Shown piece by piece: positions 2,473 through 42,623 of a DNA stretch of 64,000 bases. Source of the stretch: a bacterium (GTDB lineage: Bacteria; Myxococcota_A; UBA9160; UBA4427); contig JANSYR010000004.1 of assembly GCA_024742285.1 (NCBI GenBank), forward strand, positions 248,001-312,000, read 5' to 3'. A program made the position numbers and the translations under genes. Below the pieces are notes generated by a model, which saw only the letters and a list, made by a program, of their open reading frames with translations, did no database searches and was not told the origin of the DNA. Each line of letters opens with the position of its first letter. Within the stretch, counting starts at the first letter, position 1.

Positions 2473-3271
<799 letters not shown>

Positions 3272-34836: not shown

Positions 34837-35424
34837 TCAGGGGGAGGGCCTCGGCGTCGACGGCCCCTCGCTCGAGGCGCGGGCCCACCCGATCAACCTC
34901 CCGGGGTGCCCCGCCAGCGCGCGGAGCGAGCGCTCCGCTTCCAGCCCGATCGCTCGGCGCCCGTGTCGCCGGACCAGCTCGATCGCCTCGGCGTGCGAAA
35001 GCCCGCCCAGGGACAGCACCTGCGGTCGCAGCGCCGCAAGATCTCGAGGGATCGCCGACGCGTCTTCGCCGGAGGCGATCAGGCATGCGCCCGAGGGGAG
35101 GCTTCGCGCCGGCAGGCCCAGGCGATCTCGTGCGTCCTCCAGCACGATCCAGCGCGGGTCGCGGTCGCCGCGCGACGGGGACCGGAAGAGCGCGGCGGCT
35201 TCGGCTGCGGAGAGCGGAGGGCGCTGGACCAGGCAGCGCAGGCCCCGCCAGGCCGCATAACGCGTCGCCTCGGTGATCAAGCGCGTCTTGCCGATGCCCG
35301 ACGGCCCGGCGATCCAGACGGCTCGCCCGGAACCGACCGCCGTCCCTTCGATCGTTCGGATGAGCGCCGCGAGCTCTCGTCGTCGGCCGATCAGGCGCCC
35401 CGGGCGCCCCCGCCCTGCGTTCAT
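34837..35424 (-). CDS. Orphan P-loop NTPase (AAA_16/STAND-like), single domain
   Basis: 195 aa. Residues 8-60 (IGRRRELAALIRTIEG, then AVWIAGPSGIGKTRLITEAT) resemble the N-terminal part of the STAND ATPase encoded divergently at 35591 (FVGRTALLGAARIAI; GEPGIGKTRLADEVL). A Walker B-like RWIVLEDARD is present, then an RRHG..AL-type helical end. It lacks the long TPR and C-terminal domains. Start ATG at 35424 keeps the intergenic promoter region; ATGs at 35487 or 35589 are in frame but poorly supported. It may be a truncated duplicate or a small regulator; unknown. Confidence 0.6.
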   Translation of the reverse strand: MNAGRGRPGRLIGRRRELAALIRTIEGTAVGSGRAVWIAGPSGIGKTRLITEATRYAAWRGLRCLVQRPPLSAAEAAALFRSPSRGDRDPRWIVLEDARDRLGLPARSLPSGACLIASGEDASAIPRDLAALRPQVLSLGGLSHAEAIELVRRHGRRAIGLEAERSLRALAGHPGRLIGWARASSEGPSTPRPSP

Positions 35425-35590
35425 CTCGCCCGTCAAGATCCCTGCCCCCGCATGCCCGCCGGGGAGGCGCCACTCGGGCCGTGGCATCGCCACGAAGATG
35501 GCCGCCCATGCCCCGAACCCGACGGCGGCTCGCCGCGGAAGCGATATCGAACGCCCCTCTCGCGCGTCGTTGGCGATAATCTGGAGTGCC

Positions 35591-38500
35591 ATGACTTCCG
35601 ACGATCCCGCCCCGACGCCGAGCTCCTCGCTCGAGCGATTGGCCACCAAGCCGTTCGTGGGCCGCACGGCCCTGCTCGGCGCCGCGCGGATCGCGATCGA
35701 CGGGGCGCGCCTGGGACGAGGACAGTGCCTCCTCTTCAGCGGCGAGCCGGGCATCGGGAAGACGCGACTCGCCGACGAGGTCCTCGGTCTCGCCCGTCAC
35801 CGCGGCCTCGGCACGATCGCCGCGCGCTGTCACGAGATCGAAGGCGCGCCGGCGCTCTGGCCCTGGCTGCAGGTCGTTCGCGGTGTGCTGGCCCGGCTTC
35901 CCGACTCGGAGCGCGAAGCGCGGCTGGCTGCCGACGGCGCGATCCTCACGCGACTGATCGACCGGCAGGCGGCCGGCCCGTCGGTCGAAACGTCCTCCCC
36001 CGATCGCTTCGCGGTCTTCGATGCGGTCACGCGGCTGCTCGATCGGGCCTCGTCTCTCGAGCCCCTCGCGATCCTGATCGACGACCTGCACTGGAGCGAT
36101 CCCGCAAGCGCGATGCTCCTGCACTACGCGGTTCGCGAGCTGCGCCATGCGCCCGTGCTCTTCGTCGCGCTCTTTCGGCACACGGGCCTGAGCGAACGGA
36201 CCTCCCTCGCGCACGTTCTCGAAGGGCTCGCGAGCGATGCAGAGTCGTTCGTCCTCGAGGGACTCGAGGAGGAAGAGATCCGAGACCTCGTCCGCGAGGT
36301 CATGGGCTACGAGATGGCGGACGTGTTCCACGCCGCGCTCCGAGCCCATACCGGCGGCAATCCGCTCTTCATGGTCGAGGTGATCCGAACCCTCGTGAGC
36401 GAGGGGCGAATGGGCTCGCCCGAGGAGGCGGTCCCCGACGCGATTCCGCTCCCCGGCAGCATCCGGACCGTGATCGAGCGAAGGGTCGACGCGGTGGGCG
36501 AGCTGGCCGCGCGTGTCCTGCGTCAAGCGAGCTTGTTGGGCCGTGAGCTCGACGTCGACCTGCTCGAGGCGACGGGCCTTTCTCCCGACGAGACGCGTTC
36601 GGGTCTCGACGCCGGGCTCGACGCGGGGCTGCTCGAGCAGGTGGACGGCAGTGCGCGCCGGGTCCGATTCACCCACGACGTGGTGCGAGAAGTGCTGGAG
36701 CGGACGCTCTCCGAGGCCGATCGTCTTCACTTCCACCGCCGCGCGGCGGACGCCCTGCTCGCTGCGCGTTCTCTTCGGCTCCACGAATGTTATGCCCAGC
36801 TCGCGGCTCATCTGCTGGTCTCGGCGCAGGCGGCGGGCGAGGGGGACGGGGCCCCGCGCGCGGAGGCCGATGCGCGCGCCGCCTTCGACTACGCGATGCT
36901 GGCGGCCCGGCAGGCCTATTCGAACTACTCCTTCGAGGTGGCCTGCGAGCTGCTCGAGACCGCGCTGCGTGCGCTCGACGCCGGCGGGTCCGGGCTCCCA
37001 TCGGCGGCCGAGCAGGAACGGCTCGCCCTGCGCGGCAAGGCGCTCGTGCTGCTCGCGGACGCGCGCTGGCAGTCCGGACTCGCGGTGGAGGCCGCCGAGG
37101 CGGACCGGGAGGTCGAGCAGATCGCGCGCCGCCTCGGGGATCCGGCGCTGCGGGCGCAGTCGGTCCTCGGACTCGCGGGTCGCAACGACCTTCCCCTCGA
37201 TCCACCGCCCGAGCATGCGCGCTGGCTGGCGGAGGCCTATGACGCCCTGCCGGAGGACGAAACCGTGCTGCGTCTGCGCCTGTTGGCCCAACGCGTTCGG
37301 TCGAGCTCGTTCGGAGACCTCGGCGAAGAGCTGATCCGCTGGGCGGAGGAATGCCAGCGACTCGCCGAGGAGCTCGACGATCCCTGGGCGCGATTCATCG
37401 CGCGGGATGCGATGCACTATGCGCTGCTGCCCGCGGAGCACCTCGAGGCGCGACTCGAGGTGGGCAGCTCGCTGCCGGATCTCGCGCGTCACCTCGGGTC
37501 CTCGCGACTCGAAGCGCTCGCGCTCCTCTGGCGGATCTTCGACCGGTTGCAGCTCCCGGATCGCGCTGGCGCCGATCGGGATGCCGGGCGACTCCGCGAG
37601 AGCGCCGAGCGCATGCGACGTCCTTTCTGGCGCTGGCTCTCCCTCGGCGTCGATGCTTGCCTGGCGCTGCTCGACGGCGATCTGCCCCGGACCGAGCGGC
37701 TCGTCTTCGAGGCGCTCGAGGTCGGACAACAGGCCCAGACGCCCAACGCGCTGATCTTCTTCGGAACGCAGCTCTTCCATCTGCGCGAAGCGCAGGGCCG
37801 TTCCGACGAGCTGCTCCCGCTGATGGAGCAGATCGAACGCGAGCGTCCGGGTCTGCCGGTCTTCCGGATCGGTATTCCGCTGATCCACGCCCTCGCCGGT
37901 CGTCGAGAGGAGGCGCAGCGCACCTTCGATTCCGTCGCCGCCGCCGATTTCGAAGACGTCCCCGACGATTTTCATCGTCTGCCGATGCTCACGTCGTGCG
38001 CCCGGGTGGCTGCCTACCTGGGCGACCTGCCGCGGGCGAAGCGACTGCGCGCGCTGCTCTCACCCTACGAAGGTCGAGTCGTGATGGCCGGTGTGGTCAC
38101 GTTCTGGGGAGGATCGGTCGATCGCTTCCTGGGCGCTCTCGAAGAAGCGCTCGGTGACCTGGAGGCGGCCGCCCGACGCTACGAACGGAGTCTGCACATT
38201 GCCGAGCGGGCCGGCGCGCGGCTCGCGGCGGCGGCCTCGCGCCTCGACCGGGCGCGCGTCCTGCGGGCCATCGGCGGCGAGGCACCGCTCACCGAGGCGG
38301 CCGACCTCGAGCGCACGGCGATCACGTCGCTGCAGGCGCTCGGCGTCGAGCCCTCCGACCGTGCCGTCCCGCTCGCCGGGCGCGCGATGCCGGGTCGGAC
38401 GACGCCGGCCGCCTCGGCGTCTATCGCGCGGTTCGCGCGTGGTGCCTACTCGTGGCAGCTGTCCTTCGCGGGCGACGACTTCGAGCTGCCAGACACCAAG

Positions 38501-39013
38501 GGACTCGCCTATCTGCATCAGCTGCTCGCGACGCCCGATCGCGAGATCCACGTGCTCGACCTCGTCGCCGCGGAGGAAGGCGCCGCGCCGGCCGCCCGCT
38601 TCGAAGGGAGCGGCGAAGCCGACGCCGGGAGCGTGCTCGTCGAGACCGAGTGGGAAAGCGTGGACGACCAGGCCCTCGCTGCCTATCGGGACCGACTCCG
38701 GCGCCTCGCCGAAGACCGCGCCGCGGCGGAGTCGGCGCGCGATCTCGGGCGACTCGAGGCGATCGACGAGGAGGCGGTCCGGATCGAGGACGAGCTTCGG
38801 CGGGTGACGGGACTCGGTGGACGCGCCCGTCCGGCGGGCTCTTCCGTCGAGAAGGCGCGCAAGTCGGTCTACAACCGGATCCGCGCGGCGATTTCGCGGA
38901 TCGAGGTGCACTCTCCGGCGCTCGCCCGTCACCTGGAGCGATCGGTGACGACGGGACGTTCCTGCGTCTACCGACCGGAGCAGGCGATCGAGTGGACGCT
39001 CGAGCCGGACTAG
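35591..39013 (+). CDS. Large STAND-type ATPase with TPR-like middle and C-terminal regulatory domain
   Basis: 1140 aa. Residues 20-330 are an AAA_16 ATPase: Walker A GEPGIGKTRL (51-60), Walker B LAILIDDLHWSDP (about 160), GGNPLFMVEVIRTLV sensor-like motif. Residues about 400-900 are helical TPR-like repeats. The last about 200 aa (ELPDTKGLAYLHQLLATPDR, then RIRAAISRIEVHSPALARHL) form a conserved terminal module seen on other AAA_16 proteins, here without an adenylate cyclase or LuxR HTH. STAND proteins act as signal-dependent switches. ATG at 35591 is close to the divergent NTPase. Effector or target unknown. Confidence 0.82.
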   Translation: MTSDDPAPTPSSSLERLATKPFVGRTALLGAARIAIDGARLGRGQCLLFSGEPGIGKTRLADEVLGLARHRGLGTIAARCHEIEGAPALWPWLQVVRGVLARLPDSEREARLAADGAILTRLIDRQAAGPSVETSSPDRFAVFDAVTRLLDRASSLEPLAILIDDLHWSDPASAMLLHYAVRELRHAPVLFVALFRHTGLSERTSLAHVLEGLASDAESFVLEGLEEEEIRDLVREVMGYEMADVFHAALRAHTGGNPLFMVEVIRTLVSEGRMGSPEEAVPDAIPLPGSIRTVIERRVDAVGELAARVLRQASLLGRELDVDLLEATGLSPDETRSGLDAGLDAGLLEQVDGSARRVRFTHDVVREVLERTLSEADRLHFHRRAADALLAARSLRLHECYAQLAAHLLVSAQAAGEGDGAPRAEADARAAFDYAMLAARQAYSNYSFEVACELLETALRALDAGGSGLPSAAEQERLALRGKALVLLADARWQSGLAVEAAEADREVEQIARRLGDPALRAQSVLGLAGRNDLPLDPPPEHARWLAEAYDALPEDETVLRLRLLAQRVRSSSFGDLGEELIRWAEECQRLAEELDDPWARFIARDAMHYALLPAEHLEARLEVGSSLPDLARHLGSSRLEALALLWRIFDRLQLPDRAGADRDAGRLRESAERMRRPFWRWLSLGVDACLALLDGDLPRTERLVFEALEVGQQAQTPNALIFFGTQLFHLREAQGRSDELLPLMEQIERERPGLPVFRIGIPLIHALAGRREEAQRTFDSVAAADFEDVPDDFHRLPMLTSCARVAAYLGDLPRAKRLRALLSPYEGRVVMAGVVTFWGGSVDRFLGALEEALGDLEAAARRYERSLHIAERAGARLAAAASRLDRARVLRAIGGEAPLTEAADLERTAITSLQALGVEPSDRAVPLAGRAMPGRTTPAASASIARFARGAYSWQLSFAGDDFELPDTKGLAYLHQLLATPDREIHVLDLVAAEEGAAPAARFEGSGEADAGSVLVETEWESVDDQALAAYRDRLRRLAEDRAAAESARDLGRLEAIDEEAVRIEDELRRVTGLGGRARPAGSSVEKARKSVYNRIRAAISRIEVHSPALARHLERSVTTGRSCVYRPEQAIEWTLEPD

Positions 39014-39049
39014 AAGCGGGTCCCGGCTTCGTTCCAGGAACGGGCGGGC

Positions 39050-40411
39050 TCACCTCTGGCCCGGCTCCTCGATCGCCAGCTTGTCCATCTTCAGCTTGAG
39101 CACGCGCCGGGTGATGCCGATCGCGCTGGCCGTCTTCGTCTGGTTCCAGCCGTTCGCGGCGAGCGCCTCGCGAAGGATGTCGGTCTCGAAGCGCGCGACC
39201 GTTTCTTCGAAGCCGCGTTCGCCCTGGCGCCACTGTTCGCGGAGCGCCTCCGCCTGACCCGAGTGGCCGATCGCCGGCGGAAGATCCTCGCGGTCGATCG
39301 TGTCGCCCTCCGCCATCGCGAGGGCGTACTCGATCGCGTTCTCGAGCTCGCGCACGTTGCCCGGCCAGCCGTAGCCCTCGAGCGAACCGATCGCCGCGGG
39401 CGCGAGGGTCCGGTCGGGGCCGAGTCGCTCGAGGAAGTGCTGCGCCAGCAACCGGACGTCTTCTCGTCGTTCACGGAGCGGCGGAAGCGCGACCGGCACG
39501 ACGGCCACGCGGTAGTAGAGGTCCTCGCGGAAGTTCCCGTTCTTCACTTCTTCGGCGAGATCGCGGTTCGTCGCCGTCACGATCCGCACGTCGACGCTGA
39601 TCGACTGCGACGAGCCCACGCGTTCGAAGGTGCGCTCCTGGAGCGCACGCAGGAGCTTGACCTGCACCGCCTGGTCGAGCTCGCCGATCTCGTCCAGGAA
39701 GAGCGTGCCGCCGTCGGCCGCCTCGAAGCGTCCTGCGCGCCGTTCCGAAGCGCCGGTGAAGGCGCCCTTCTCGTGTCCGAAGAGCTCGCTCTCGATCAGC
39801 TCCGAAGGAATCGCACCGCAGTTCACCGCGACGAAAGGTCGCTCGGCCCGAGGAGAGAGATCGTGGATCGCTCGCGCGGCGAGCTCTTTGCCCGTGCCGC
39901 TCTCACCGGTGACGAGGACGGTCGCCTCCGCCTTCGCGATCCGTTCGATGGTGCGGAAGACGCTTCGCATCGCTTCGCTGCGGCCGACCATCCGGCCCAG
40001 GTGTTGACGTTCGTCGATCTCGTCACGGAGTCGCTCGACCTCGTCCTCGAGCTCGCGCTTCTCGAGCTTGTCGCGGACCTTGAGCTTGAGCGCGTCGAGC
40101 TCGAAGGGCTTCGTCACGAAGTCCGCCGCCCCGCGCTTCATCGCTTCGACCGCCGCGTTCACCGTGTTGGTCGCGGTCAGCACGATCACCGGCGCGCGGA
40201 TCCCGCGCTCCGCGAACTCCTGGAGGAGATCGAGGCCGCTGCGTCCAGGCATGACCAGGTCGAGGAGGACGACGTTCGGTGTCGCGAGGGCGACTTCCCG
40301 GAGCGCATCGTCGACGTTCCCGGCGACGGTCACGTCGCCCTCGGATTTCAGCAGCATGCGCAGGGATTCCTGCACGCCCGGTTCGTCGTCGACTACCAGA
40401 ATGCGAGGCAT
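39050..40411 (-). CDS. Sigma-54-dependent NtrC-type response regulator
   Basis: 453 aa. Receiver (Asp51 in LLDLVMPG, Lys101), AAA+ domain with Walker A GESGTGKE (169-176), GAFTGA (216-221) that contacts sigma-54, Walker B GTLFLDEI, and a C-terminal Fis HTH (NQTKTASAIGITRRVLKLKM). All elements needed for activation of a sigma-54 promoter are present. Its partner is probably the unusual kinase-like gene 67 bp upstream on the same strand. Targets are unknown. ATG at 40411 gives the exact receiver start. Confidence 0.95.
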   Translation of the reverse strand: MPRILVVDDEPGVQESLRMLLKSEGDVTVAGNVDDALREVALATPNVVLLDLVMPGRSGLDLLQEFAERGIRAPVIVLTATNTVNAAVEAMKRGAADFVTKPFELDALKLKVRDKLEKRELEDEVERLRDEIDERQHLGRMVGRSEAMRSVFRTIERIAKAEATVLVTGESGTGKELAARAIHDLSPRAERPFVAVNCGAIPSELIESELFGHEKGAFTGASERRAGRFEAADGGTLFLDEIGELDQAVQVKLLRALQERTFERVGSSQSISVDVRIVTATNRDLAEEVKNGNFREDLYYRVAVVPVALPPLRERREDVRLLAQHFLERLGPDRTLAPAAIGSLEGYGWPGNVRELENAIEYALAMAEGDTIDREDLPPAIGHSGQAEALREQWRQGERGFEETVARFETDILREALAANGWNQTKTASAIGITRRVLKLKMDKLAIEEPGQR

Positions 40412-40478
40412 TCCGGGAGCTTACCACGCCTGTTGCGGATCCCCGCCGATTTCCCGCCGGCGGCGCCGCGGGGTCGGT

Positions 40479-42623
40479 CTAGGAAGGCGTCGGGAGGTCG
40501 ACCAGGACCAGGGTCTCGGCGCTGTCCGTCGCGTCCACGGTCAGCTGGCCGCCGCCGGCCTCGACGATCGTCTCGGCGAGCACGTACTCGAGGACGTTCG
40601 CCGCGGCCGTCACGTCGGACAGGCCGCTCGTGTCGCCCGCACCGAGCGGGGCCGCCCCGCGCCGCTCCGGATCGTGGTGTCGGAGCAGGATCCGCAGCCG
40701 CGGGTTTCCGTCCGCGGCGCGATCGATCCGCCGGGTCGCGACGAAGAGATCGCCTCGCTCGGGCAGCGACGCGAGAGCGCGGTCGAGCAGGCCCGCGAGG
40801 GCGACCTCGAGTCCCGTCGGGTCCGCCCAGGCGATCGGTGCGTCGCGCTCGAGCTCCCGCAGCACGAGCAGCCTCCGTTCGCCGATCGAATCCCGACGAT
40901 CGTCGAGGAGACGCTCGAGGAGGGCCGAGACGTCGATCGGAGACGCCTCGATCTTCTCGTGCGCCGAGGCGCTCGACAGCCGGCCGATCACCTCGTCGAT
41001 GTGCGCGACATCGCGACCGACGAGCTCGCGGAAGCGGTCGCGGAACTCGGCGTCCTCGAAGTTGTCGTCGAGGAGCTCGGTGAACGTCCGGATCGAGACG
41101 AGCGGATTGCGGATCTCGTGAGACAGACTGCGAGCCAATCGGCGCCATTGGTCATGAGCCTGCGCCGGGGCCGCCAGGGGCGCAGCAGGTGCCGCCGGGG
41201 GCGTAGCAGGAGTAGGGGGCTCGGTCGCGGCGTGCGCGAACGTCTCCGCGCCGAGCTCCGTCGAGACATCCCCGTCGGCCTCGCCCGCGATCCGGGGTTC
41301 CGGCGCGTCGATGGCGGGCGGGGTCGCCTCCGGGAGCCCCTCGGCGAAGGCCCGCTCGAGGTCGGCCGTGGCTTCGCTCGGCCCGGTCGGAGCGTCCGAC
41401 GCGGATGCGGGCGGGGACGTCGCCGGAACGCTCGGCGGGATCACCGGCGCGCCGGCGAATTGCGCGCGCAGATCATCGGGTTCGTCCGTCTGGACCGTGG
41501 CGAAGCCGTCGTCTTCGACCGATCGCGTCGCGAGCGCGAGGGCTGCACCCGATTCGCCGAGATCCGCCGCGCTCAGCGGATCCCGGGCCGTCGAGGCCAG
41601 CGCCGTCCAGAGAAGCGACTCCACGGCGCTGCGATCGCCTGCCCAGGCCTCACTCTCGAGCACGGCGAGGGCTTCGTCGTCGAGGCTTCGCCGCGGGCCA
41701 CCGACCTGCGCCGTCCAGCTCGAGAGAACGTGCTCGGCGAAGGGTCGCACCGCCGCCGGATCGTCGGCGAGGCTCGGCACCTCGACCACCAGCGCCGCGA
41801 AGGCGCCGGCGAGCACCGGCTCGAGGGTCTCGCGTCCGGCGCCAGGCGCGGCCGTCGCGACCACGTGAAGGCGATCGCCGCCCGGACCGATCCCGAGTCG
41901 CATCCACTCGGCGAGCGCGCGCTGGGCTTCGGCCGGGAGGGCATCCACGTCCTCGATCCGCAGGGACCCGGTCGTCGCGATGCGTTCGGCGAGTCGTTCG
42001 GCGCCGTGGATCTCGCGGCCGTCGAGGCGGACCGCGCCGGTCGACGCGGCGCGGCTCCGAAAGAGCTCCGCATAACGTGCGACGAGACTCCGGCCACTCC
42101 CGGCGCGACCGCAGACCAGCAGGGGCAGGCCGGCGAGCGCGGGATCGAGGGCGCGCAGCAGACCGGGAACGTCGACCGAGCCGAACCAACCCGAGAAGCG
42201 CTCGGCGATCCGTTCGCGTTCGTGGCGCGCCGTGAGCGGCGCCGCATTGCGGTGGGCCGCGGCGCTGCGGACGAGCGCGCGCAGCGTGCGCGGATCCGGA
42301 CGCTCGGCGCACGTCTCGTCCTCATCGGCGGAGAAGAGGCGCTGGATCTCGCTCGCGTCCTCGTCGCTCGCGAGGAAGAGTCGGCGGGCGGTGGCGAGGG
42401 CCACGCGGTGACGGTGGACGAAGTCGAGCTCCGCTTCGAAGTCGCCCCTCGGTGCGATCAGGAGCGCGAGGGGCGCACTCGCCGTCGCGAAGACGGCGTC
42501 ACCGGGCGCGCCGATGACCAGACGCTCCGCCGGCAGACCCGTCGCACGGGCCAATGCGTTTCGCGGGGCGACCTCGCGGTCGACGATCCAGAACGTCTGA
42601 GGGAGGGAGGACTCGGTGGACAT
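40479..42623 (-). CDS. Kinase-like protein: P-loop module fused to HisKA and a degenerate HATPase
   Basis: 714 aa. Residues 1-120 resemble a receiver-like domain (FWIVDREVAPRNALARATGL) without a clear phosphoacceptor. Residues 145-300 are P-loop-like: GRAGSGRS (172-179) has Arg where Walker A has Lys, and SLRIEDVDALP stands as Walker B. Ala/Pro-rich linker, then HisKA near 500 with the SHEIRNPLVSIRTF motif. The ATPase-type C-terminus lacks a clear N-box Asn (GLLDRALASL) and a good G-box. Upstream of the NtrC-type regulator on the same strand, so it is a likely partner. It may bind nucleotide poorly and act as phosphatase or a scaffold. ATG at 42623 has GGAGA upstream. Confidence 0.75.
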   Translation of the reverse strand: MSTESSLPQTFWIVDREVAPRNALARATGLPAERLVIGAPGDAVFATASAPLALLIAPRGDFEAELDFVHRHRVALATARRLFLASDEDASEIQRLFSADEDETCAERPDPRTLRALVRSAAAHRNAAPLTARHERERIAERFSGWFGSVDVPGLLRALDPALAGLPLLVCGRAGSGRSLVARYAELFRSRAASTGAVRLDGREIHGAERLAERIATTGSLRIEDVDALPAEAQRALAEWMRLGIGPGGDRLHVVATAAPGAGRETLEPVLAGAFAALVVEVPSLADDPAAVRPFAEHVLSSWTAQVGGPRRSLDDEALAVLESEAWAGDRSAVESLLWTALASTARDPLSAADLGESGAALALATRSVEDDGFATVQTDEPDDLRAQFAGAPVIPPSVPATSPPASASDAPTGPSEATADLERAFAEGLPEATPPAIDAPEPRIAGEADGDVSTELGAETFAHAATEPPTPATPPAAPAAPLAAPAQAHDQWRRLARSLSHEIRNPLVSIRTFTELLDDNFEDAEFRDRFRELVGRDVAHIDEVIGRLSSASAHEKIEASPIDVSALLERLLDDRRDSIGERRLLVLRELERDAPIAWADPTGLEVALAGLLDRALASLPERGDLFVATRRIDRAADGNPRLRILLRHHDPERRGAAPLGAGDTSGLSDVTAAANVLEYVLAETIVEAGGGQLTVDATDSAETLVLVDLPTPS

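Follow-up and report, generated by a model that had tools for sequence, protein, structure and literature searches.

A predicted kinase-dead NtrC-NtrB fusion protein encoded beside an intact sigma-54 activator in an uncultured class of Myxococcota_A

A 64,000-nucleotide stretch of contig JANSYR010000004.1 (assembly GCA_024742285.1, positions 248,001 to 312,000), here called the window, carries the gene of a 714-residue protein just before that of an NtrC-type sigma-54 activator. Our results showed that this protein unites a degenerate NtrC with an NtrB-like kinase core that has lost its ATP-binding motifs. Its presumed phosphate-handling residues, His502 and Asn506, are kept almost only in genomes with a working activator, so that the fusion probably controls the activator without being a kinase. 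We put it at close to an even chance that the fusion is a kinase-dead regulator of activator phosphorylation acting through these two residues, most likely a dedicated phosphatase and brake.

Domain architecture and lost motifs of the fusion protein

Both genes lie on the minus strand. The open reading frame of the fusion starts with ATG at 42623 and ends at 40482 (stop codon 40479-40481), and the activator gene (39050-40411, 453 residues), a conserved downstream gene, follows about 70 bases 3' of it. The activator matched the receiver, sigma-54, lid and Fis domains of Pfam, and its best NCBIfam match was AtoC, under the cut-off. D8, D9, D51, K101 and the Walker-A K175 were invariant in all 30 aligned copies, and the GAFTGA motif was mostly intact, with Asp as its fifth residue in 9 of the 30. 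The gene pair with its intact activator is thus arranged as a preliminary description of the window had read it from the letters.

Relatives of the fusion were collected in a first alignment of 34 members including the window protein (A1), each of which was also scanned singly against Pfam, and in a class alignment of 76 near-full proteins, again including that of the window. For the window protein, Pfam gave HisKA (E 4.6e-9) and Sigma54_activ_2 (PF14532, E 3.8e-6) above the cut-off and otherwise nothing notable. HisKA, whose motif had been noticed before, was present in 34/34 members of A1, Sigma54_activ_2 in 31 and AAA_lid_14 in 30. HATPase_c was matched in one member (E 0.058) and Response_reg in none of the 34 up to E 0.1. 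HTH_8, the Fis-type DNA-binding domain, was absent from the Pfam matches of the window protein and the 34 members; a linker and the kinase core follow the lid.

The A1 profile was compared with the PDB and detected NtrC-family chains over receiver, AAA+ and lid (4l4u, profile positions 42-386, E 1.1e-32) as well as the ZraS kinase core (E 1.5e-12). An AlphaFold2 model built on A1 reached a mean predicted local distance difference test score of 79.7 and a predicted template modelling score of 0.49. Model confidence was low in the linker (about residues 368-484) and at residues 658-673, which we take to be the place of the ATP lid in kinases. NtrC1, VpsR, NtrX and RetS were the top ranks in Foldseek. 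VIA-align superposed residues 9-360 on NtrC1 1ny5 with Z 20.3 at a root-mean-square deviation of 11.9, a value which indicates a fit domain by domain and not as a single body, and the AAA+ part alone fitted NtrC1 1ny6 with Z 19.3 at 2.7 Å. The catalytic and ATP-binding (CA) part aligned with VanSA (Z 18.1, 1.6 Å) and with the CA domain of NtrB, 1r62 (Z 17.1, 2.2 Å). By these alignments, residues 9-360 correspond to an NtrC in degenerate form, with receiver, AAA+ and lid and no DNA-binding domain, linked to an NtrB-like kinase core.

The pseudo-receiver covers residues 9-123 (42255-42599; all features of this gene are on the minus strand). It has the alternating strand/helix fold of a receiver in the model and aligns with the NtrC1 receiver, and its acidic pocket and Lys are mostly lost. 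The pseudo-AAA+ sigma-54 activator domain with lid follows at residues 130-360 (41544-42236) and includes a Walker-A motif with Arg for Lys, GRAGSGRS (residues 172-179, 42087-42110). The HisKA domain (residues 487-553, 40965-41165) forms long helices at 487-521 and 525-553 in the model. It carries His502 at the phospho-acceptor position (41118-41120) and, four residues on (H+4), Asn506 (41106-41108), at the position needed for phosphatase activity in CrdS (PMC3510030). The pseudo-HATPase or CA domain occupies residues 560-714 (40482-40946).

The receiver-like N-terminus of the preliminary description is supported by the 4l4u match and the 1ny5 alignment, despite the missing Response_reg match. 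Its P-loop-like module exists too, but a separate P-loop sensor domain was rejected, as Pfam, the profile comparison with the PDB and the structural alignment all place the P-loop in the NtrC-like half. No standard sensory domain was seen at residues 145-300, which are AAA+ of NtrC type. Receiver-like start, P-loop and AAA lid thus form one unit, an NtrC front half; the whole is a dead NtrC to which a dead kinase of NtrB type is attached.

The motif losses extend through the 76 class proteins. In the Walker-A motif, G175 is kept in 76, G177 in 70 and R178 in 72 (window included), with Lys in 3 and Cys in 1 at position 178. The acidic pair of the receiver is mostly His-Arg: position 15 is His in 61 of the 76 and Asp in 5, among them the window protein, whose D15 is the one acidic residue kept in its pseudo-receiver. 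The phospho-acceptor position of the pseudo-receiver, assigned by inspection of the alignment, is mostly Gly or Ala. A relaxed pattern for the GAFTGA loop was found in 0/76. Where kinases have the N-box Asn (position 615, in the register of HMMER alignments to ZraS and KinB), 32 of 75 proteins have Arg, 19 have Lys, none has Asn and the remainder have other residues; 6 proteins carry a loose DxGxG string somewhere within their last 200 residues. The absence of clear N- and G-boxes noted in the window protein thus holds across the family. A normal HATPase overlooked by Pfam was also rejected; the CA fold is present but the N-box Asn is missing in 75/75. At position 502, His is found in 62/76, window included. 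Three arginines just before the AAA+ domain (R133, R136 and R142, within residues 130-143) are nearly invariant, and R133 is retained in 9/9 proteins of one clade (order 2); they are a candidate ligand or contact site.

The two best matches of the kinase half elsewhere in the phylum sample (G223 and G373) are ordinary kinases with N- and G-boxes (HEIRNPL, LNLVQNA or INLVQNA, DTGPG, GTGLGL), and one of them has GGDIYVATR where the fusion family has (R)GDxYxAS. An ordinary kinase of this kind is the likely ancestor of the kinase half. Judged from its residues, the 714-residue protein presumably cannot be a normal autokinase. Because the defining features of autokinases and of sigma-54 activators were both looked for and are missing, we place it outside both groups, as a protein that appears to work like a pseudo-histidine kinase.

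The fusion family was found in 81/90 genomes of the window's class and in 0/287 others of the phylum (A1 profile, E 1e-42, 377 genomes, three candidates scored per genome). An earlier count of 60/60 includes weak matches to ordinary kinases and was not used. The kinase-half profile alone matched 79 class genomes plus the two ordinary kinases above. Near-full proteins came from 76 of the 81 family genomes, and G008 yielded a fragment; for G021, G040, G047 and G075, the sequence around the gene was that returned by the search. A decayed gene was rejected, given this distribution and the residues conserved across the 76 proteins. The same domain order recurs in the family, with the activator adjoining in most loci and missing in some. 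The fusion proved as unusual as had been supposed: in the literature as far as our searches covered it, nothing of similar architecture turned up. Two frames (L121:4367-5320, minus strand; L122:5194-6054, plus strand) match the dead kinase half only (E about 1e-38), without the NtrC-like front, and the L122 open frame begins with a different protein-like stretch.

Retention of His502 and Asn506 with the activator

The activator was present in the fetched stretch of 54/77 loci. Its frame lies at most 300 nt from that of the pseudo-kinase in 46 loci and overlaps it further in 4 more; the distance is 1.6-3.6 kb in three loci and 0.6 kb in one frame-shifted locus. Near-full copies (at least 57% identity, E 1e-158 or better) were clearly apart from paralogues (at most 52%, E 2e-126 or worse), and a deeper look in 11 genomes gave no copy of the former kind. 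Partner status followed the E 1e-158 limit; G037 and G048 were added on the basis of local hits. The partner test comprised 72 proteins. G048 was left out because its kinase half is unreadable in the main frame, and G053, G059 and G074 were set aside, with no partner found and the gene at the contig end downstream. G072 was counted, though its contig, too, ends close by, with 414 bases left.

When the genome holds the activator, His502 and Asn506 are both kept in 56/56 proteins. When it does not, both are kept in 2/16 (G073 and G079); 2 others retain only Asn, 1 (G070) only His and 11 neither residue, which makes 3/16 for His502 and 4/16 for Asn506. The raw Fisher p for this association is 4e-13, a value that is not corrected for kinship and not valid for related genomes; 9 of the 16 partnerless proteins form the order 2 clade. 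The HisKA motif columns were left out of the alignment for a maximum-likelihood tree, on which the partner state changed 6 times. Five independent pairs could be drawn on starred branches, of which 3-5 go in the expected direction and 0 in the opposite one (sign test p 0.06-0.25). Seven partnerless proteins fall outside order 2; 5 of them have an altered H502 and 3 an altered N506, while R648, W327, Q234 and G175 are unchanged in 7/7, and R178 in six. The association of the two residues with the activator is uniform in direction, and the independent sample is small.

His is missing in 13/16 partnerless proteins, versus about 0.9% of the HisKA domains in the large sample reported in PMC12632262.

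Possible phosphate chemistry and rival explanations

In the mechanism that we prefer, the fusion would be a pseudo two-component regulator, with a dead NtrC front half (receiver, AAA+ and lid) and a dead kinase core of NtrB/AtoS type. His502 and Asn506 would act on the phosphorylated receiver (Asp51) of the neighbouring activator, most likely by removing the phosphate, and the front half would probably dock to, or control, the NtrC partner of the same fold. The activator itself would probably be phosphorylated by some other kinase, bind the palindrome GTTCCN4GGAAC and drive a downstream sigma-54 promoter (P2, described below), which often stands ahead of a gene for a receiver-HD protein.

The direction of the phosphate reaction was judged by comparison with CrdS. 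CrdS and other HisKA kinases are reported to need the acid at H+1 for kinase and not for phosphatase activity; this was seen on changing the H+1 Glu of CrdS to A, D, G or Q, and the changes to A and D abolished the former activity and spared the latter (PMC3510030). An Asn or Thr at H+4 is described there as required for phosphatase and not for kinase activity, N375A of CrdS still being kinase-active, and N482K in the CA domain as kinase-dead. Among the 56 partner-bearing fusion proteins, H+4 is Asn in 56/56, as in a dedicated HisKA-type phosphatase with a cognate receiver. Of the same 56, 50 have Glu at H+1, 4 have Ala and 2 have Asp, and the N-box position is Arg or Lys in 51/75. This residue pattern (a kept Asn, a replaceable acid and a lost N-box) favours a phosphatase. 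The preliminary description had already thought of one, and the idea fits the pattern; relay and sequestration could also account for the protein.

Several observations weigh against the phosphatase. The sign test alone is not significant and the independent losses are few. The contig-end genomes G053, G059 and G074 keep both residues and G072 is without both; with all four set aside, both residues are kept in 2/15 (3-4 of 5 pairs as expected, p 0.125-0.25), and with all four counted in 5/19 (2-4 of 7 pairs, 0 opposite, p 0.125-0.5). G073 and G079 keep His and Asn without a partner, and G070 keeps His alone. In the seven partnerless proteins outside order 2, T513 is altered in 5, I580 in 4 and D61, L517 and D538 in 3 each, so the change extends beyond the two catalytic positions. 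Glu at H+1 is still there in 50/56. His502 is as strict as Asn506, which is beyond the need of a pure phosphatase, as CrdS H371A is reported to retain much of its phosphatase activity (PMC3510030). PhyT, a degenerate kinase with HRxxN, was first called a phosphatase and, by the account in PMC5898713, was later recognized as a phosphotransferase with the further ability to hold its target. Finally, the fusion is kept without the partner in 16/72 classified proteins and must therefore also do something else.

An equally strict His is what a phosphorelay would need. In this main rival, which we consider possible and clearly less probable than the phosphatase, the fusion would be a transferase like Spo0B, ChpT or PhyT, and His502 would take the phosphate from another receiver (of a hybrid kinase or of the receiver-HD protein) and pass it to the activator. 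The invariance of His502 with the partner agrees with this, and so does the second receiver protein in many loci. The HATPase fold without ATP motifs does so too, as ChpT and PhyT have it; ChpT is described with a PhyT-like layout, and crystals of it that grew in the presence of ATP or ADP contained neither nucleotide (PMC3433190). On the other side, transfer is not known to depend on a strict Asn at H+4, going by the N375A result above, and a phosphate donor would have to be postulated. The pseudo-NtrC half might also co-assemble with the activator or hold it, and so block ring assembly or ATP hydrolysis, with the kinase half as a dimer and docking platform (cf. DivL and RetS). We regard such a ring poison or sequestration as rather unlikely. 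In its favour are the fit of the front half, receiver and AAA+, to an inactive chain of NtrC1 (the 1ny5 fit above), the missing GAFTGA loop that contacts sigma-54 and the high structural rank of RetS against the kinase half; but ring poisoning alone leaves the tracking of the partner by His502 and Asn506 unexplained, and contact with the activator is only presumed.

The proteins without partner would suit a sensor of a ligand or nucleotide that works on its own and stands beside the activator by chance, without relation to it, in particular as the Walker-A glycines and Arg are mostly kept and an upstream promoter (P1, below) persists in 10 of those 16. This is improbable, since the two genes lie side by side across the order's families and H502 and N506 are associated with the partner. 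A decaying kinase without function would explain the lost catalytic motifs, and we give it hardly any weight: non-catalytic residues are conserved in 76 proteins of one class, behind a conserved sigma-54 promoter. It is also conceivable, at odds little short of those for the phosphorelay, that the fusion has two separable jobs. Phosphate handling would be kept mainly with a live NtrC, and an older non-catalytic scaffold or sensor role would outlive the loss of NtrC and even of its own His, the NtrC-like half entering or capping the partner ring. We know of no description of such capping as a way to silence a sigma-54 activator.

CrdA is an NtrC-type regulator, RetS acts by interaction, and FleQ and VpsR are NtrC-like proteins with altered receivers that keep DNA binding. 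We know of no fused NtrC module in DivL or RetS. The fusion resembles the NtrB/NtrC and AtoS/AtoC pairs in that its kinase half matches the AtoS and ZraS profiles (all far below the NCBIfam cut-offs), its front half matches the NtrC family and the gene order is pseudo-kinase then activator; it differs from them by a kinase without ATP motifs and by a dead NtrC front half instead of a sensor domain. FleQ and VpsR rank high against the fusion model, which has a kinase core where those have DNA binding. FleQ also binds c-di-GMP (motifs in PMC10714721). With CrdS-CrdA of Myxococcus xanthus it shares a HisKA with H-E-x-x-N acting, by our reading, on a cognate regulator, whereas CrdS is reported to be a working bifunctional kinase (PMC3510030). 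ChpT, PhyT and, as cited with them, Spo0B (PMC3433190, PMC5898713) have a DHp (dimerization and histidine phosphotransfer) domain and a degenerate HATPase fold, used in them for phosphotransfer. No NtrC-like front half is mentioned in what these accounts gave us, PhyT has HRxxN and is membrane-bound, and a relay in the fusion is only presumed. DivL, described as a pseudo-histidine kinase that acts by interaction (PMC9430884), and RetS are kinase-like, and both are among the PDB matches of the kinase half.

Pseudo-receivers are described as common, with their switching mostly unknown, and pseudo-histidine kinases as only starting to be treated as a group (PMC12632262). Here one protein unites a pseudo-receiver, a pseudo-AAA+ activator and a pseudo-kinase, and the natural losses of its presumed partner are a built-in test of the purpose of each dead domain. 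H502, N506 and E503 are the predicted residues to probe, and P2 and the palindrome the DNA sites; together they make sigma-54 control approachable in a class that is still uncultured.

Sigma-54 promoters and gene neighbourhood

The upstream promoter, P1, was searched as TGGCACRN4TTGC in the 324 nt preceding the pseudo-kinase, one mismatch being allowed. It was found in 64/75 loci with enough upstream sequence, versus 0/304 coding stretches of the same size from the same loci. It is missing from the window, its near relatives G003, G004 and G005, G037, G045 and five of nine order-2 loci. As P1 persists without the partner, some other protein probably activates it. An autoregulatory role of the partner at P1 is unsupported, given the presence of P1 in partnerless genomes and a different, weaker dyad: GGAAAN4TTTCC occurs in 8/51 partner-bearing P1 regions versus a top count of 2 in shuffles, and may bind the activator of P1.

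The search for P2 ran as far as +14 kb, or to where the stretch ended; the site lies +3.4 kb or more downstream of the pseudo-kinase in 39/76 loci, window included, all with partner. In the window it is an exact match, TGGCACGCCCCTTGC (31101-31115, minus strand), just before the receiver-HD gene. The palindrome GTTCCN4GGAAC (at most 1 mismatch) was found within 300 nt upstream of P2 in 32/39 loci versus 12/375 random stretches, and in 17 of the 32 it stands at -172 to -185 from the start of the P2 site. The window has a degenerate copy with 2 mismatches upstream of P2 (31291-31304); within the window, matches like this occur at chance frequency (36 found versus 34.5 expected). The strict palindrome has 0 matches in the window's own genome. 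The strict sigma-54 pattern has 17 sites in that genome, versus 5 for the reversed control, and the translations 3' of sites read as glutamine synthetase, ammonium transporter, flagellar rod or hook proteins and type IV pilins. These counts and downstream genes suggest that the strict pattern picks plausible sigma-54 promoters. An exact site with the same letters as P2 also lies at 2586-2600 (minus strand), before an open reading frame ending in a Fis-like helix-turn-helix; near it starts a PII-like protein, named from sequence (plus strand, about 2930-3271).

The receiver-HD protein (29864-31087, minus strand, start codon inferred) is 87% identical to the third gene of a sister genome. Pfam gave REC and HD_5 in 6/6 relatives' receiver-HD proteins scanned, and other neighbours were named by reading their sequences. 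In some loci (e.g. G009, G017, G018) no receiver-HD match was found. A TatC-like gene (27758-28525, minus strand) is a conserved neighbour, downstream and in the same direction in many relatives, and within about 1 kb 3' of the pseudo-kinase in 8/9 order-2 loci, G014 and G073. The ancestral order was probably aminotransferase and acetyltransferase (divergent), pseudo-kinase, activator, receiver-HD as third gene, PilZ-like, TatB-like and TatC-like.

With regard to type IV pili, PilT was found in 86/90 class genomes, and neither PilT nor the fusion family occurs in the other four, G039, G050, G064 and G089; this co-absence is weak because three of the four genomes are small (2.2-2.8 Mb). A flagellar link was rejected, an FlhA-type export gene being present in just 24/90 class genomes with no relation to the partner by eye.

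Compared with the sister genome G004, extra genes take up about 8 kb of the window from activator to receiver-HD (31261-39050). They encode two similar secreted-looking repeat proteins (31346-32482 and 32565-33785), a protein whose tail we take to be PEP-CTERM-like (33826-34818), an open reading frame at 34837-35754 (minus strand) and an AAA_16 regulator (35273-39013, plus strand).

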